The notes under the pieces: model-generated
What the model was told of the DNA's origin: nothing
The model's database searches: none
The model's input: the letters and a program-made list of their open reading frames with translations, nothing else
Source: an uncultured Christensenellaceae bacterium
GTDB lineage: Bacteria; Bacillota; Clostridia; Christensenellales; UMGS416
Assembly (NCBI GenBank): GCA_944376795.1
Contig: CALWDW010000033.1
Location: 1 to 64,000 of the forward strand
Reading direction: 5' to 3'
Length of the DNA stretch: 64,000 nt
In this document: piece by piece, positions 55 to 43,403 of the stretch
How positions within the stretch are numbered: position 1 is the stretch's first letter
Layout of the letters: each line of letters begins with the position of its first letter
Program-made: the position numbers and the translations under genes

Positions 55-229
55 ATTGGATACCTCCTTCCTTCGGTTTTGAAAAGTGTTCGTTTCGGCG
101 GATTTTCGCCCCTGTATCACCACCCCGCCTCCCATGGGGGAAAGAATATGGGCGGTTTCACTTTCGCCGCCCACAGGCGAAAAAACAGGGGATTTTCCAC
201 CCTAAAACGCACACTGGATTTAGGGATAG

Positions 230-8934: not shown

Positions 8935-9621
8935 ATGCTGATATCCAAAAAGGATTTGCTGGTGCAGACTGGGATATCCTACGGTCAGCTCTACCGCTGG
9001 AAGCGGGAACGGCTTATCCCCGAAGAATGGTTTATAAAGCAGCCTTCCTTTACCGGACAGGAGACCTACTTTCCCAAGGACAAGATTCTGACCCGCATTC
9101 GTGCTATCCAGGAGCTTAAGGATCGCTATCCCCTGGAGGAGTTGGCAAAGCTTCTCTCTCCTGAGGTTGCAGAGCGCAGTTTTACTGCACAGGATCTGGA
9201 AGTTATTGAGGAAATCGATGACCGAGCAATCCCCGCTATCATACAAGGATACGGAAAATCTATCCTAAGCTATGTAGAGGTTTTGATTGCTATGGCACTG
9301 TGCCAATCCCGCCAGCGACACGACATATCCTTAGGTGCCTTTATTCATATGATTGAGGGAATTCAAGACCAAGCTGCACGCTGCAAGAATACACAGTACA
9401 TTCTCACCATCCTTGTGCTGGAGGATCAGTATTATGTCCTGCTGTACCAAGAGTCTGCACAGCTTCTCTTGGATGGAAGGCTACGCGTGCTAGAATCCAT
9501 CCCTCTCGATGACCTATCCAGCCAGATGAAAATCAAATACCGGAAAAAATTCCGTTTTGTATTTGAGGACGATAGGCACGAGGCAGCAGACAACGGACAC
9601 TATGAATATGCCAATACATGA
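8935..9621 (+). CDS. yhbD: YhbD-like MerR-type regulator (DUF4004)
   Basis: A 228-residue protein whose first 70 residues form a MerR-type winged helix: ISKKDLLVQTGISYGQLYRWKRE, here split as ISKKDLL and GISYGQLYRWKRE, followed by LIPEEWF and FTGQETYFPKDKIL. This is the very conserved opening of B. subtilis YhbD. The remainder is a regulatory region of unknown ligand. In Bacillus the gene heads yhbD-yhbE-yhbF, and the same three-gene order occurs here, so a role in controlling the bactofilin genes that follow is a fair inference. I chose the ATG at 8935 because GAGGTG lies before it; an upstream ATG at 8887 would lie inside the promoter. The promoter carries a perfect inverted repeat that may be its own binding site. 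Confidence 0.85.
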   Translation: MLISKKDLLVQTGISYGQLYRWKRERLIPEEWFIKQPSFTGQETYFPKDKILTRIRAIQELKDRYPLEELAKLLSPEVAERSFTAQDLEVIEEIDDRAIPAIIQGYGKSILSYVEVLIAMALCQSRQRHDISLGAFIHMIEGIQDQAARCKNTQYILTILVLEDQYYVLLYQESAQLLLDGRLRVLESIPLDDLSSQMKIKYRKKFRFVFEDDRHEAADNGHYEYANT

Positions 9622-9639
9622 GCCAAGGAGCAAAATACC

Positions 9640-10482
9640 ATGTCAAACTTTTGGAATATGGGAAGCCGCAGGCTTTGCGGAGGCACGTACCGCCGCATTT
9701 TCTCCTTTGGCGCCATGGAAGTTACGGACTGCCATAGCGAGCGGCTCCTTAACTTTGGCAGCATGCGCATGGAAAACTGCCAAGTGGAGAAAGCCTCTTC
9801 CCGCGGCGCTCTCCACTGCCACAGCACAACGTTTCAACGCCTTCACAGTATAGGATGCCTCCAAACAACGGGCGTATGCCAGTGCGAGGAGCTTCGGTTA
9901 TCAGGCAGCGGTCAATTTGCATTTCTAGATTGTGAGAGCATTGTATTGACTGCTGGAAGCCGTCAAGAAAGAGCGGTTGTAGAAGGCAACATATCTGCAA
10001 AAACCGCCCTTATCCTTCTTCCGATAGAGATACACGACGGTTTTGACGCCCATACATGGATTACAGGAGCGCCTGTTTCCTTCCATACGGTGGCATGTGA
10101 ATCGTTTTATGGCATGTCATCTATCTGTGCTGACGAGGTCAATGCCGAGCAAGTCTATCTGTTGGCTTATCCAGATACCCAGATCTCCATGATCACAGGG
10201 ACATCAATCACGGTGAGTCCCCATGCACCCAAGGATAGCTCGGATATGATCCCCCGCATCGACGTAGCGCGAAATCTCCGGCGTTTTCAACCGTCGCAGA
10301 CTGGACTTATACATGTCGGCACTATCGAAGGAGATACGCTACTTCTTAGCCATACCCAAGCCAAATCCGTCCAAGGACAGGATGTTCAAATCGGTGAACT
10401 CTGCATCATTGATCAAGTTATATATAGCCATTCTGTTCGTATATCTCCGAAAGCCATTGTCCACGAGGTAGTGCAACTATGA
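9640..10482 (+). CDS. yhbE: Bactofilin-like polymer-forming protein (YhbE/BacE-like)
   Basis: A 280-residue protein made of short beta-strand repeats rich in G, V, I and C with a turn every 6 to 8 residues, for example FSFGAMEV, LNFGSMRMENC and LRLSGSGQFAF in the first half. That is the pattern of a right-handed beta-helix such as bactofilin. B. subtilis YhbE and YhbF (BacE, BacF) are bactofilin-type cytoskeletal proteins reported to support flagellar assembly. No membrane segment or signal peptide is visible, so it is cytosolic or peripherally membrane-attached. The start is preceded by AAGGAG; it lies 18 bases after yhbD and overlaps the next gene by four bases (ATGA). It is unusually cysteine-rich for a cytoskeletal protein (about ten Cys in the first 100 residues). 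No flagellar genes are in the window. Confidence 0.7.
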   Translation: MSNFWNMGSRRLCGGTYRRIFSFGAMEVTDCHSERLLNFGSMRMENCQVEKASSRGALHCHSTTFQRLHSIGCLQTTGVCQCEELRLSGSGQFAFLDCESIVLTAGSRQERAVVEGNISAKTALILLPIEIHDGFDAHTWITGAPVSFHTVACESFYGMSSICADEVNAEQVYLLAYPDTQISMITGTSITVSPHAPKDSSDMIPRIDVARNLRRFQPSQTGLIHVGTIEGDTLLLSHTQAKSVQGQDVQIGELCIIDQVIYSHSVRISPKAIVHEVVQL

Positions 10483-39315: not shown

Positions 39316-41160
39316 CTATTGAGGAATTGCCACACCGCTGAGTACGGCATTTTCCCTTTCGTCGCGGAACTGGTTGGTATAGAGTTCATAGTAATGGCCA
39401 CGAAGTTCCATCAATTCTCTGTGACTTCCCGATTCGATGACCTTGCCATGATCAATGACCAGGATACGGTCAGCATTGCGGATCGTAGAGAGACGGTGCG
39501 CCACGATAAAACTGGTTCTGCCTTCCAAGATCTTCTCAATCGCATGCTGAATATGCTGTTCGGTCTCCGTATCGATGGAAGAAGTGGCTTCGTCCAATAC
39601 AAAGATACTGGGACGGCCCAAGATAGCCCTGGCAAAGGAGATGAGTTGCTTTTCTCCAGTTGAAAGCCGTCCGCCTCCCTCACCCACATCGGTATCATAG
39701 CCCTTTTCCAGACGACTGATAAATCCGTGGGCTCCTACCAGCTTGGCAGCTTCCTCCACCTGCGCATCGGTGGCGGAAAGATCACCGTAGCGGATATTCT
39801 CTCGGATGGTACCGGAAAAAAGCTGAGGAGATTGCAGCACGTACCCTAGATTGGAGTGTAACCACAGTTGTGAACGTTCCTTGTAATCAATTCCATCGAT
39901 AAGAATACGGCCGCTGGTTGGTTCATAGAACCGGCAGATGAGGTTTACAATAGTGCTCTTACCGCTGCCTGTCTCTCCCACCAAAGCAATGGTTTCGCCA
40001 GCTCTGACAGAGAGATTGAAGGTATCAAGGACCTTTTCCCCACCCGTATAGCGGAAGGTAACGTTTTCAAAGGTGATATCCCCGCGGAGCGCTTCCCACT
40101 GATCCCTATGCGGAGTGAAGACATCGCCGTACTTTGCGATAACAGCCGGTGTATCGGTGATTTCCGGCATCGAATTAACCAGATTAATGACGCGCTCAGC
40201 CGCCGCCTGAGACGACTGAAGATCAGAAAAGATTCTGGCCATATTCATAATGGGCTCAAAGAAGTAGCCGGACAGGGTCAGAAAATAGGACAATTGTCCC
40301 AAACTGAGCCCCATGCACTGCACTTGCACGCCGCCAAGCCACAGAACGCCGGCAGTCGCAAACGAACCCAAAGTGCCTACAATTGGCCAATAGATTGCGG
40401 AAAATATTGCGGCTTTGATGGAATGCTCTTTCATAGAACCGGTGAGCACGGAAAACTCTTGAGCGTTTTTTCGTTCGCGCACCAAGGTTTTTGTCGTGCG
40501 GGCTCCCATGATTCCTTCGTTGAAGGCACCGGTAATGCGGGAGTTGGCCTTGCGAACCTCTCGGTAGGAACGGAGCATTTTTTTCTGAAAATACACGGAT
40601 ACGACCGCGATTGGAGGCAATACGGCAAGCATGACCAGGGCCAACTGCCATTGTACGATGAACATGCCAATCAGCGCACCAAGCATAAAGACGAAGCCCC
40701 AGGTCAAATCAACCAGCGACCATGCAATCGTATCAGCCAGGCGCTGGGCATCGCTGGTCATGCGGGCCATAATGTATCCGACGGGCGTCTTGTCATAGTA
40801 GCTGAAGGATAGCTCCTGCAGTTTTTTGAATGCATCTTTTCGGATATCGTGGCTCATACCAGTCTCCACCCTACCTGCTTGGTCACAGAAGAGGAAAACG
40901 CAGCCAGCGCTTGACATCTGAAAGATGAAGTAAATGATGGCGAAAACCCATAACCCCGCCGTCTGCTGCTTACCGATAAAGTTATCGATGGCATAGCTGT
41001 TCAGCATGGGAAGAGCCACGTCTACGACACCGCTCACGATCATGGCGCTCATCAGCGTAATGATGTGCCTTTTATATCCCATAGCATAGCGGAATATCGT
41101 ACGCCAGGTACCGAAGTTTACCTTTTGATCCTTATATTCTTCTTCTTGAAAGTAGCTCAT
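39316..41160 (-). CDS. Heterodimeric multidrug ABC exporter subunit, BmrD-like
   Basis: 614 residues: six-helix exporter domain followed by an ATPase with Walker A GETGSGKST, Walker B FVLDEATSSID with the catalytic glutamate, and H-switch IVAHRLST. Its signature is LSTGEKQL in place of LSGGQ. Paired with the upstream subunit, whose Walker B lacks the glutamate, the dimer would have one active and one degenerate ATP site, which is the hallmark of BmrC/BmrD, TM287/288 and LmrC/D. Those export drugs and lipids. It starts two bases after the partner's stop. Confidence 0.9.
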   Translation of the reverse strand: MSYFQEEEYKDQKVNFGTWRTIFRYAMGYKRHIITLMSAMIVSGVVDVALPMLNSYAIDNFIGKQQTAGLWVFAIIYFIFQMSSAGCVFLFCDQAGRVETGMSHDIRKDAFKKLQELSFSYYDKTPVGYIMARMTSDAQRLADTIAWSLVDLTWGFVFMLGALIGMFIVQWQLALVMLAVLPPIAVVSVYFQKKMLRSYREVRKANSRITGAFNEGIMGARTTKTLVRERKNAQEFSVLTGSMKEHSIKAAIFSAIYWPIVGTLGSFATAGVLWLGGVQVQCMGLSLGQLSYFLTLSGYFFEPIMNMARIFSDLQSSQAAAERVINLVNSMPEITDTPAVIAKYGDVFTPHRDQWEALRGDITFENVTFRYTGGEKVLDTFNLSVRAGETIALVGETGSGKSTIVNLICRFYEPTSGRILIDGIDYKERSQLWLHSNLGYVLQSPQLFSGTIRENIRYGDLSATDAQVEEAAKLVGAHGFISRLEKGYDTDVGEGGGRLSTGEKQLISFARAILGRPSIFVLDEATSSIDTETEQHIQHAIEKILEGRTSFIVAHRLSTIRNADRILVIDHGKVIESGSHRELMELRGHYYELYTNQFRDERENAVLSGVAIPQ

Positions 41161-41162
41161 AC

Positions 41163-43004
41163 TTAGGCTCCTTCCCCAGCGGCTGTCTCTTCCTGCTCCA
41201 CTGCGTTTTGAATGTCCCAGATCTTCCTGTAAAGCCCTGGCTGGGCAATAAGCTCCTCATGCGTACCTTGTTCGGTAATCCGGCCCTGTTCCAAGACAAG
41301 GATACGATCTGCCTCCATTAGCGTGGAGATCCGATGGGAGATGATGATGGTGGTGATCCCTTTACGCCGCTGGGCTAAAGCTTTGCGAATAGCCGCGTCG
41401 GTTTGGGTATCTACCGCGCTCAAAGAGTCATCGAAAATAAGAATATCATTTTCCCGGAGAATCGTCCGCGCAATGGCGACGCGCTGCTTTTGTCCACCGG
41501 ACAGGGTTACGCCGCGCTCGCCAACAACGGTATCATATCCTTGATCGAAGGATGTAATAACGTCATGAACGGCAGCTACGCGAGCTGCTTCATAGATGGC
41601 TTCTTCGTCGCGAACGTCCTGGGTGATTCCAATATTATCCAGGATACTCCGGCTGTATAGGAATGGCTCTTGCAGGACGATACCTACACGGCTGCGCAGG
41701 TGATCTTTATCAATATGGGTTAATTCTACGCCGCTAATAGTAATGTGGCCTTTTTGGTAATCGTAAAGGCGCTGCAAGAGGCTGACCAGGGAAGATTTTC
41801 CGCTGCCAGTAGATCCCAGAATCGCAACGGTTTCCCCGGGATGGATCGTGAAGGAGATGTTCTCCAGCACTGGCTTCTCATCGTAGGAGAAGGTGACGTT
41901 GTCAAAGACGATCTCACCCGTAAGATCGGGCTTTTGGGGATTCTCGCCCGAAGTCTCTTCCTTCTGAATGAGTATGTCGTTAATTCGACCAATGGCGATC
42001 ATTGTCTTGCTCATGTTTCCGAGCATGCGGCCAAGGCTTCGGATAGGCCACATCATCATGCCTTGGTAGGAAACGAAGACCAAGAACTCTCCTAGGGAAA
42101 GCTGACCGTTGGCGGCAAAGGAAACGCCCAGCACAATCACAATTAAAGTGGGAATCGCAGCTAAGACATCGTTGATAGACCAGAGATAGGCAAAAAGTCG
42201 GTTCAGCTTGACGCCTTGAGCGCGAAAATCATCATTGGCCGTCGAGAACTTTTCTTCTTCGAAAGCTTCTCGGCCAAAGGCGCGTACCACCCGTACCCCC
42301 GTGAAGTTCTCCTGCATCACGGTAGATAGGTGACCGTCCGCCTGTTCAGTGATGCTAAATTGCCTATCGATCTTTTTAAGATGAATTGCCGAAAAGATTA
42401 CCAGAGACGGCATGAGGAGCAGGGTAAGCAAAGTCATCATGGGATGAATCTGCCACAGAAGCACAGCAGCGAGGATGAACATTGCAACGATACGGAACAT
42501 TTCCACCAATTCATTGGAAATAAAACGGCGGACGGTTTCTACGTCGGTAGTGCAACGCTGAATCAGGTCGCCGGTTTCTGCCTTCACGTGGTAGTCATAC
42601 GGAAGCCTCTGTAACCGGCCATAAAGCGCTTCTCGCATCCGCAACGCAATGCTTTCCGCTGCAGTTGCGGTAAAACGGCTTCTGAAATAGCTTAGAAGGC
42701 TGTTGAGCCCATTAAAGAAGATCAACAGCAGCGCACAGATCCAGAGATTGGATGCCAAAAAACTGGGACCGCCATATCGATTGATCCAGTTAATGACCCA
42801 AGCAGGAGCTGCCATAGGTGCCCCCCCCAGCACCGAATCCATAATAAAGCTTAGTACTTTGGGCCAGATGAAGGAGATAGCTGTAGTGCTGAAGGCGATC
42901 ATAAGACTTATAACGTACAGCCATCTGCTTCCCTTCGAAAAATTCCAAAGGACCTTCAGTCGGTAACGGTTCAAGTGATTCCTTCCTTTCTCCGGGACAG
43001 CCAT
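41163..43004 (-). CDS. Heterodimeric multidrug ABC exporter subunit, BmrC-like
   Basis: 613 residues: exporter membrane domain, Walker A GSTGSGKSS, canonical signature LSGGQKQR, but Walker B reads LIFDDSLSAVD, with aspartate where the catalytic glutamate should be. Together with the partner's odd signature this makes the degenerate site of an asymmetric heterodimer, as in B. subtilis BmrC (YheI). The start may be ATG 43004 (GGGAG upstream) or TTG 42974 (GGAAGG six bases upstream). A leader with a 29-codon ORF and an intrinsic terminator precedes it (43096-43327), which suggests ribosome-mediated attenuation as for bmrBCD. Confidence 0.9.
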   Translation of the reverse strand: MAVPEKGRNHLNRYRLKVLWNFSKGSRWLYVISLMIAFSTTAISFIWPKVLSFIMDSVLGGAPMAAPAWVINWINRYGGPSFLASNLWICALLLIFFNGLNSLLSYFRSRFTATAAESIALRMREALYGRLQRLPYDYHVKAETGDLIQRCTTDVETVRRFISNELVEMFRIVAMFILAAVLLWQIHPMMTLLTLLLMPSLVIFSAIHLKKIDRQFSITEQADGHLSTVMQENFTGVRVVRAFGREAFEEEKFSTANDDFRAQGVKLNRLFAYLWSINDVLAAIPTLIVIVLGVSFAANGQLSLGEFLVFVSYQGMMMWPIRSLGRMLGNMSKTMIAIGRINDILIQKEETSGENPQKPDLTGEIVFDNVTFSYDEKPVLENISFTIHPGETVAILGSTGSGKSSLVSLLQRLYDYQKGHITISGVELTHIDKDHLRSRVGIVLQEPFLYSRSILDNIGITQDVRDEEAIYEAARVAAVHDVITSFDQGYDTVVGERGVTLSGGQKQRVAIARTILRENDILIFDDSLSAVDTQTDAAIRKALAQRRKGITTIIISHRISTLMEADRILVLEQGRITEQGTHEELIAQPGLYRKIWDIQNAVEQEETAAGEGA

Positions 43005-43095: not shown

Positions 43096-43130
43096 AAAAA
43101 AACTGTAGTTGGATTCATTGCCACTACAGT
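43096..43130 (-). terminator. Leader terminator upstream of the multidrug ABC pair
   Basis: A perfect 8-bp stem (ACTGTAGT with ACTACAGT, 43102-43109 and 43123-43130) has a 13-base loop and seven T on the minus strand. It lies between the leader ORF and the first transporter gene. A second 6-bp hairpin (CAAAGC with GCTTTG, 43138-43143 and 43166-43171) lies between the leader ORF stop and this terminator. Confidence 0.85.
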
Positions 43131-43176
43131 CCTGATGCAAAGCCTAACAAGAAGATCTACAAATTGCTTTGGAAGA

Positions 43177-43266
43177 TCAGCCGTCAATATAAAGGCCGGA
43201 ATGATGCATCGGGAATGGGCCAGTGAATTTGCGGTAAGCTGTTGAAGAATCCAGATCCAATAACAT
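43177..43266 (-). CDS. 29-residue leader peptide upstream of the multidrug ABC pair
   Basis: ATG 43266 to TGA 43177, with a very strong ribosome-binding site (AAAAGGAGG) placed eight bases ahead and a near-consensus promoter 33 bases further up. The peptide begins MLLDLDSSTAYRKF and ends HHSGLYIDG; it resembles no protein I know and has no membrane segment. Its position between promoter and terminator, in front of a BmrCD-like exporter, is that of the BmrB leader peptide of Bacillus, where a drug-stalled ribosome changes RNA folding and lets transcription pass the terminator. By analogy this is a regulatory ORF. Translation and stalling are inferred. Confidence 0.65.
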   Translation of the reverse strand: MLLDLDSSTAYRKFTGPFPMHHSGLYIDG

Positions 43267-43298
43267 CAGTCCAACCTCCTTTTCACATTTATGGCATC

Positions 43299-43327
43299 AT
43301 TATACCCTGACACTGGAATGACGGCAA
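43299..43327 (-). promoter_or_regulatory. Promoter of the multidrug ABC leader
   Basis: Minus strand TTGCCG (43322-43327), 17 bases, TATAAT (43299-43304). The predicted transcript starts near 43292, about 25 bases before the leader ORF. Confidence 0.75.
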
Positions 43328-43379: not shown

Positions 43380-43403
43380 AAAAAGCCCAGGAAAGACCTG
43401 AGC
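43380..43403 (-). terminator. Terminator of tsaC
   Basis: Stem GCTCAGG with CCTGGGC (43397-43403 and 43385-43391, one G-T pair) and a 5-base loop, followed by five T, 20 bases after the tsaC stop. Confidence 0.75.

Follow-up and report, generated by a model that had tools for sequence, protein, structure and literature searches.

A probable ribosome-controlled transcription attenuator ahead of an asymmetric ABC exporter in Clostridia, with the Shine-Dalgarno sequence and start codon as proposed anti-antiterminator strand

The trp leader of Escherichia coli works by a four-segment logic, in which the pairings 1:2, 2:3 and 3:4 are alternatives and the ribosome chooses among them, stalling at Trp codons being what is sensed. 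In Bacillus subtilis, the bmrB-bmrCD system requires translation of its leader and is induced by lincomycin, erythromycin and chloramphenicol; three hairpins lie within nt 60-162 of the 53-codon bmrB ORF, which also contains the terminator; what the anti-antiterminator does there is unclear (PMC4191407). Studies on vmlR of the same species indicate that a ribosome held by lincomycin or retapamulin on the uORF(MIN) prevents the anti-antiterminator, and the antiterminator forms; some variants of the uORF peptide are tolerated (PMC9226507). In the case of toiL-topAI of E. coli, ribosomes stalled by tetracycline at the start codon of a uORF alter RNA pairing (PMC12121999).

The locus described here lies in a stretch of 64,000 nucleotides (the window) from an uncultured Christensenellaceae bacterium. 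It is probably a ribosome-controlled transcription attenuator, similar to trp and vmlR, ahead of an asymmetric ABC exporter, in which the Shine-Dalgarno (SD) sequence and the AUG form the anti-antiterminator strand and held ribosomes would induce the exporter. It resembles bmrB-bmrCD in its leader ORF, in the series of anti-antiterminator, antiterminator and terminator, and in the heterodimeric, presumably multidrug, ABC exporter downstream; it differs from bmrB, as published, in that SD and AUG form the anti-antiterminator and the terminator follows the stop codon. The terminator is thus not inside the leader ORF, and the exporter is not specifically closest to BmrCD. As in vmlR, a ribosome held on the uORF would block the anti-antiterminator, but the vmlR uORF has three codons in the bulge of a hairpin and a single-stranded SD, whereas here SD and AUG are paired and the ORF spans region 2. 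toiL-topAI acts on a toxin-antitoxin operon, at the levels of translation and of Rho termination, in contrast to an intrinsic terminator before an exporter. With trp the locus shares the four-segment logic, although its sensor would be start-site occupancy instead of stalling at Trp codons. The switch logic is therefore already known from trp, bmrB and vmlR. The use of SD and AUG as the anti-antiterminator strand is new only provisionally, because the literature searched, in which this arrangement was not found described, included few subscription journals.

Anatomy of the locus and its exporter

The promoter, ribosome-binding site, 29-codon ORF, small hairpin, terminator and two ABC genes listed by an earlier note on this DNA are all present on the minus strand of the window, as follows.

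43299-43327, minus strand: promoter, -35 TTGCCG, 17 nt, -10 TATAAT (window motif search)
43274-43282, minus strand: near-perfect SD of the leader ORF, AAAGGAGGT (sequence)
43177-43266, minus strand: leader ORF of 29 codons, MLLDLDSSTAYRKFTGPFPMHHSGLYIDG, with its ATG at 43266 (ORF reading; length constraint across 29 leaders)
43264-43279, minus strand: region 1, GGAGGUUGGACUGAUG, from the SD through the start codon, 5' strand of the anti-antiterminator (pairing tests)
43191-43206, minus strand: region 2, CAUCAUUCCGGCCUUU, inside the end (last third) of the ORF, pairing with region 1 (codon shuffle and family permutation)
43204-43221, minus strand: antiterminator arm of region 2, GGCCCAUUCCCGAUGCAU (folding; p=0.09 in the window alone)
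43121-43139, minus strand: region 3, UGCAUCAGGACUGUAGUGG, 5' arm of the terminator and its 5' flank (pairing, folding)
43096-43131, minus strand: intrinsic terminator, GACTGTAGTGG...CCAACTACAGTT, with a run of T; hairpin 43131-43101 (sequence, folding)
43154-43178, minus strand: small hairpin in the interval between ORF and terminator (folding)
41163-43004, minus strand: ABC half-transporter 1 (TMD and NBD, degenerate Walker B DD), the gene controlled in the proposal
39316-41160, minus strand: ABC half-transporter 2 (canonical Walker B DE, degenerate signature LSTGEKQ)
43385-43403, minus strand: terminator of the upstream sua5 (threonylcarbamoyl-AMP synthase), which parts the transcription units

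The terminator begins 45 nt past the leader stop codon, and in many relatives this gap is only 14-30 nt; the small hairpin after the ORF is outside the switch model. The leader RNA of the window is more stable than its shuffles (folding, z -2.6). The promoter match of the window does not by itself exceed chance (1 found, 0.9 expected), and promoter-like sites, similarly well placed, occur in most of the 29 leaders collected from orthologous loci. It is recurrence that lifts the locus above chance, namely the same order of parts in these 29 leaders, together with their ORF length and promoter-like sites. No curated RNA family in Rfam matched the leader, and no credible Pfam family was found for its peptide.

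Both ABC proteins contain membrane and ATPase domains and are thus half-transporters. In translation, half-transporter 1 has the Walker-B pair DD, with Asp replacing Glu, and a normal LSGGQKQ signature, and half-transporter 2 has DE and the degenerate LSTGEKQ. As read from the translated motifs, this split is the pattern of an asymmetric heterodimer, which bears out the asymmetry proposed in the earlier note. Its description of a BmrC/BmrD-like pair is apt for two asymmetric half-transporters, but loose as to kinship, given that BmrCD is not singled out among solved relatives: both proteins match BmrCD no better than they match the P-glycoprotein halves, TmrAB and TM287/288, and BmrC and BmrD rank under P-gp, TmrAB and TM288.

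Distribution of the leader and drift of its peptide

The transporter was searched for in 200 genomes of the order and in named GTDB contigs, and 29 leaders were kept for their SD, ORF and terminator, pairing not being among the criteria; leader-like frames of 14 and 15 codons (L035 and L106) were set aside. Ahead of the closer orthologues, AAAGGAGG recurs together with a start codon, which opens an ORF of about 30 codons; a strong terminator follows. A leader not conserved at all would have spoken against attenuation according to the earlier note; the layout of SD, ORF of 20-43 codons and terminator recurs in about 30 orthologues, mostly of Clostridia. Among records with names, it occurs in Christensenella, in Lachnospiraceae (the cultured Catenibacillus scindens DSM 106146, leader L099) and in Ruminococcaceae, and one Chloroflexota MAG carries it as well. 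The Christensenella leader L075 falls among family f11, which makes Christensenellales the probable host order. More distant orthologues of the exporter are mostly without a leader, and the layout was found in none of 14 paralogues. When the leader trait is mapped onto a phylogeny of 74 exporter proteins, it changes 10 times, versus 22.6 times with shuffled labels, a distribution that fits inheritance with losses. A similarity search with the leader DNA among 61 relatives returned the self-match only.

Two upstream regions deserve separate mention. On a contig of an Anaerolineales (Chloroflexota) MAG, the same leader architecture stands ahead of an exporter orthologue (L118:63-203), for which transfer, an old origin or misbinning are possible. 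In the same-family orthologue L010, a strong terminator lies some 60-110 bases upstream of the exporter match and a clear SD-led ORF is absent; this region may be a degraded or a different attenuator.

The computed ORF length is constrained to 20-43 codons in the 29 leaders. The chance of this in shuffles is about 10^-16 for all 29, a figure that is only indicative because the range was read from the same data, frame 0 moreover being open by construction, through the picking of leaders. The conserved segments are the three RNA regions (1, 2 and 3), and the peptide sequence is not conserved. Close relatives (L073, L077 and L013) keep the SD, the ORF-end block TTGCGGCCGCCT and the terminator, while the remaining sequence drifts with indels, and L073 and L077 read the region 2 block in different frames. 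Over all leaders, the reading frames of region 2 are divided 14/8/7, and the middle of the ORF is too variable for confident alignment. No nascent peptide motif is conserved among the relatives' leaders beyond what RNA pairing forces. A loose C-terminal motif spotted by eye ([VA]C[GA]RP, PWxGRLFLR) is accounted for by the anti-SD codons of region 2. The earlier note had called the peptide apparently new and suggested looking for its conservation among relatives. RNA pairing is kept in place of the peptide: the peptide sequence drifts freely, and all three reading frames occur over the conserved RNA. Newness means little for a peptide that is not a conserved sensor. The best explanation is that the peptide sequence is irrelevant, the role of the ORF being to place ribosomes.

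Alternative pairings, ribosome position and proposed mechanism

Partners were swapped by permutation across the 29 leaders, preserving composition and coding constraint. The mean 1:2 duplex energy was -21.8 kcal/mol with the own partner versus -15.6 kcal/mol with swapped ones (z=-11.4), and the mean 2:3 energy was -17.9 versus -15.0 kcal/mol (z=-5.3), which amounts to covariation of both helices within the family. The control pairings 1:3, SD with early ORF, and early ORF with region 3 gave no signal in these leaders; two controls that involved the 5' UTR were discounted because of energy artefacts. Codon shuffling within the ORFs gave Stouffer z values of -16.7 for 1:2 and -8.2 for 2:3; individually, 26/29 leaders had p<0.05 for 1:2 and 13/29 for 2:3, the latter pairing not being significant by itself in the other 16. 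In most leaders a block in region 2 is complementary to the SD-AUG, as with AGGAGGCGGACAGTATG and CATACTGTCTGCCTTT in L099 or GGAGGTTGGACTGATG and CATCATTCCGGCCTTT in the window, and this block or its neighbour also pairs with the 5' arm or foot of the terminator. The centre of region 2 precedes the last base of the stop codon by 18 nt in the median, a position under a terminating ribosome.

In the window alone, codon shuffling gave p=0.010 for 1:2 and p=0.09 for 2:3, and the 2:3 pairing by itself is only suggestive. The antiterminator of the window consists of GAUGCA/UGCAUC and a few more pairs, takes mainly the terminator foot and is weaker than most. In the minimum-energy fold of the full-length RNA the upper terminator stem persists, so that antitermination in the window would have to be kinetic. 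Many family members also show only modest 2:3 pairing. Our claim rests on the family evidence rather than on the window's own antiterminator.

RNAs cut just before region 4 were then folded repeatedly, with the footprint of a ribosome placed on one codon after another. The mean number of 2:3 pairs was 9.5 with the ribosome at codon 2, 5.2 without a ribosome and 2.9 with the ribosome at the stop codon; the values in the window were 11.7, 3.7 and 3.6, respectively. A ribosome over codons 1-4 blocks 1:2 in these folds and frees region 2 for region 3, a gain that fades beyond about codon 6; a ribosome that has reached the stop codon lies over region 2, and without a ribosome 1:2 forms. After codon shuffling the switch is much reduced (p=0.0012 and 1.2e-5), and in 12/29 leaders the fold gains fewer than 3 pairs. 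The structure is thus predicted to be off when no ribosome is present or translation is fast, and on when a ribosome is detained at the start. The folding of the leader with and without a stalled ribosome, proposed as a check in the earlier note, thus predicts in silico a structure that switches with ribosome position.

The features expected of a ribosome-mediated attenuator are found here to different degrees. There is a short leader ORF with SD, start codon and constrained length, and an intrinsic terminator before the gene; the overlap of antiterminator and terminator is seen at the level of the family and falls short of significance in the window; and the choice of structure by ribosome position is seen in silico, in masked folding and against codon shuffles. 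Ribosome-mediated attenuation, as the earlier note had it, is well borne out by the computed ORF architecture, covarying helices and terminator. The peptide, however, is not a conserved sensor, and the pairing on which the switch would turn, that of SD-AUG with the ORF end, had been missed.

In the mechanism that we propose, region 1 would pair with 2, region 2 with 3, and region 3 with 4, the 3' arm of the terminator, as alternatives. When ribosomes run through the leader, one at the stop codon would sit on region 2, and after its departure 1:2 would form, which would also shut the leader start site; region 3 would be left free, the terminator would form and transcription would stop. With no ribosome loaded, 1:2 would form likewise, with the same outcome. 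A ribosome detained at the start codon or within the next few codons would cover region 1, 2:3 would pair and the polymerase would enter the exporter genes. The leader's ribosome-binding site would double as an anti-antiterminator strand, and the exporter would be switched on by ribosomes that are held at the start codon or immediately past it. By analogy with other systems, the holding agents may be retapamulin, lincomycin or tetracycline; sensing of translation-blocking antibiotics is plausible on the same grounds, and start-trapping drugs would be expected to induce. What the computation shows is the parts, the constraint on ORF length, the covariation of 1:2 and 2:3 in the family and the switch of the fold; translation of the leader, the nature of the signal, the effect on transcription and the substrate of the pump are inferred.

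Whether the leader stands for a class of attenuators whose sensor is their own ribosome-binding site, reading start-site occupancy, blind to the peptide and reclosing the start after each ribosome passage, we regard as an even question. If true, this would be a clade-wide RNA device inducing ABC exporters under inhibitors that trap initiating ribosomes. The attenuator as read here extends ribosome-sensing control of such exporters beyond Bacillus to a wide range of Clostridia, in large part uncultured. The model predicts that inducers are start-codon trappers and accounts for the unconserved peptide. It also provides a simple search rule for leaders that peptide searches miss: the SD-AUG should be able to pair with the end of the ORF, and that end in turn with the terminator arm or foot.

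Other readings of the leader have to be weighed against this one. A short ORF ahead of a presumed resistance pump fits attenuators of the ErmCL/MsrDL type, in which nascent peptide and drug together stall the ribosome at a defined codon, and early stalling would yield the same RNA switch. However, the relatives' peptides hold no motif beyond the demands of RNA pairing, the conserved RNA lies in any of three frames and close relatives show frame-shifting drift, which makes peptide-specific arrest unlikely. Sensing of charged tRNA by runs of a single codon, as in trp and his, would use an identical four-segment logic, but it is very unlikely here, given that the window leader has no codon runs, composition varies between leaders and the target is an exporter rather than a biosynthetic operon.

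A riboswitch or protein-bound RNA switch, with ORF and SD-like sequence incidental, could set covarying alternative helices through a ligand, and ABC leaders with unknown ligand are known (PMC2965389). Yet one helix strand is a strong SD with its start codon, ORF length is constrained, the stop codon falls just past region 2 and Rfam offers no match, and we consider such a switch quite improbable. Hardly any credence is left for an ordinary unregulated leader, with a leaky terminator and a spurious small ORF: the chance-level promoter and weak antiterminator of the window would suit it, but recurrence and covariation across the family would not. The ribosome-controlled attenuator with SD-AUG as anti-antiterminator strand is thus the reading that we retain.

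Scans for the architecture elsewhere

A scanner for the whole architecture, run on 0.94 Mb of fetched DNA, returned the leaders before this exporter and few others. One of its matches is a second one in the window, of 32 codons with a terminator (9600-9698, minus strand); it lies antisense to plus-strand ORFs and is probably due to chance. In the window's own genome, the pattern AAAGGAGG-ATG-(85..174)-TTTTT has only a handful of other matches; judged by their sequence, these seem to be the beginnings or inner parts of ordinary genes. Across the order, 396 genomes were scanned with patterns for two frequent versions of the 1:2 helix, and 60 loci were fetched from the matches. Most of the order-wide matches appear to be coding sequence. 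Within the fetched loci, every ATG leader match with a long downstream gene stands before this exporter, among them a leader additional to those used above (L182).

A leader-like ORF of another kind, MKHNHYYYYYICDCLFSLSKR, was observed in an Oscillospiraceae genome (L103:8353-8419, minus strand). It has five consecutive Tyr codons, an SD, ORF-end pairing and a terminator, and lies upstream of an apparent SSS-family sodium:solute symporter gene (L103:8283-6751); it is possibly an amino-acid attenuator.
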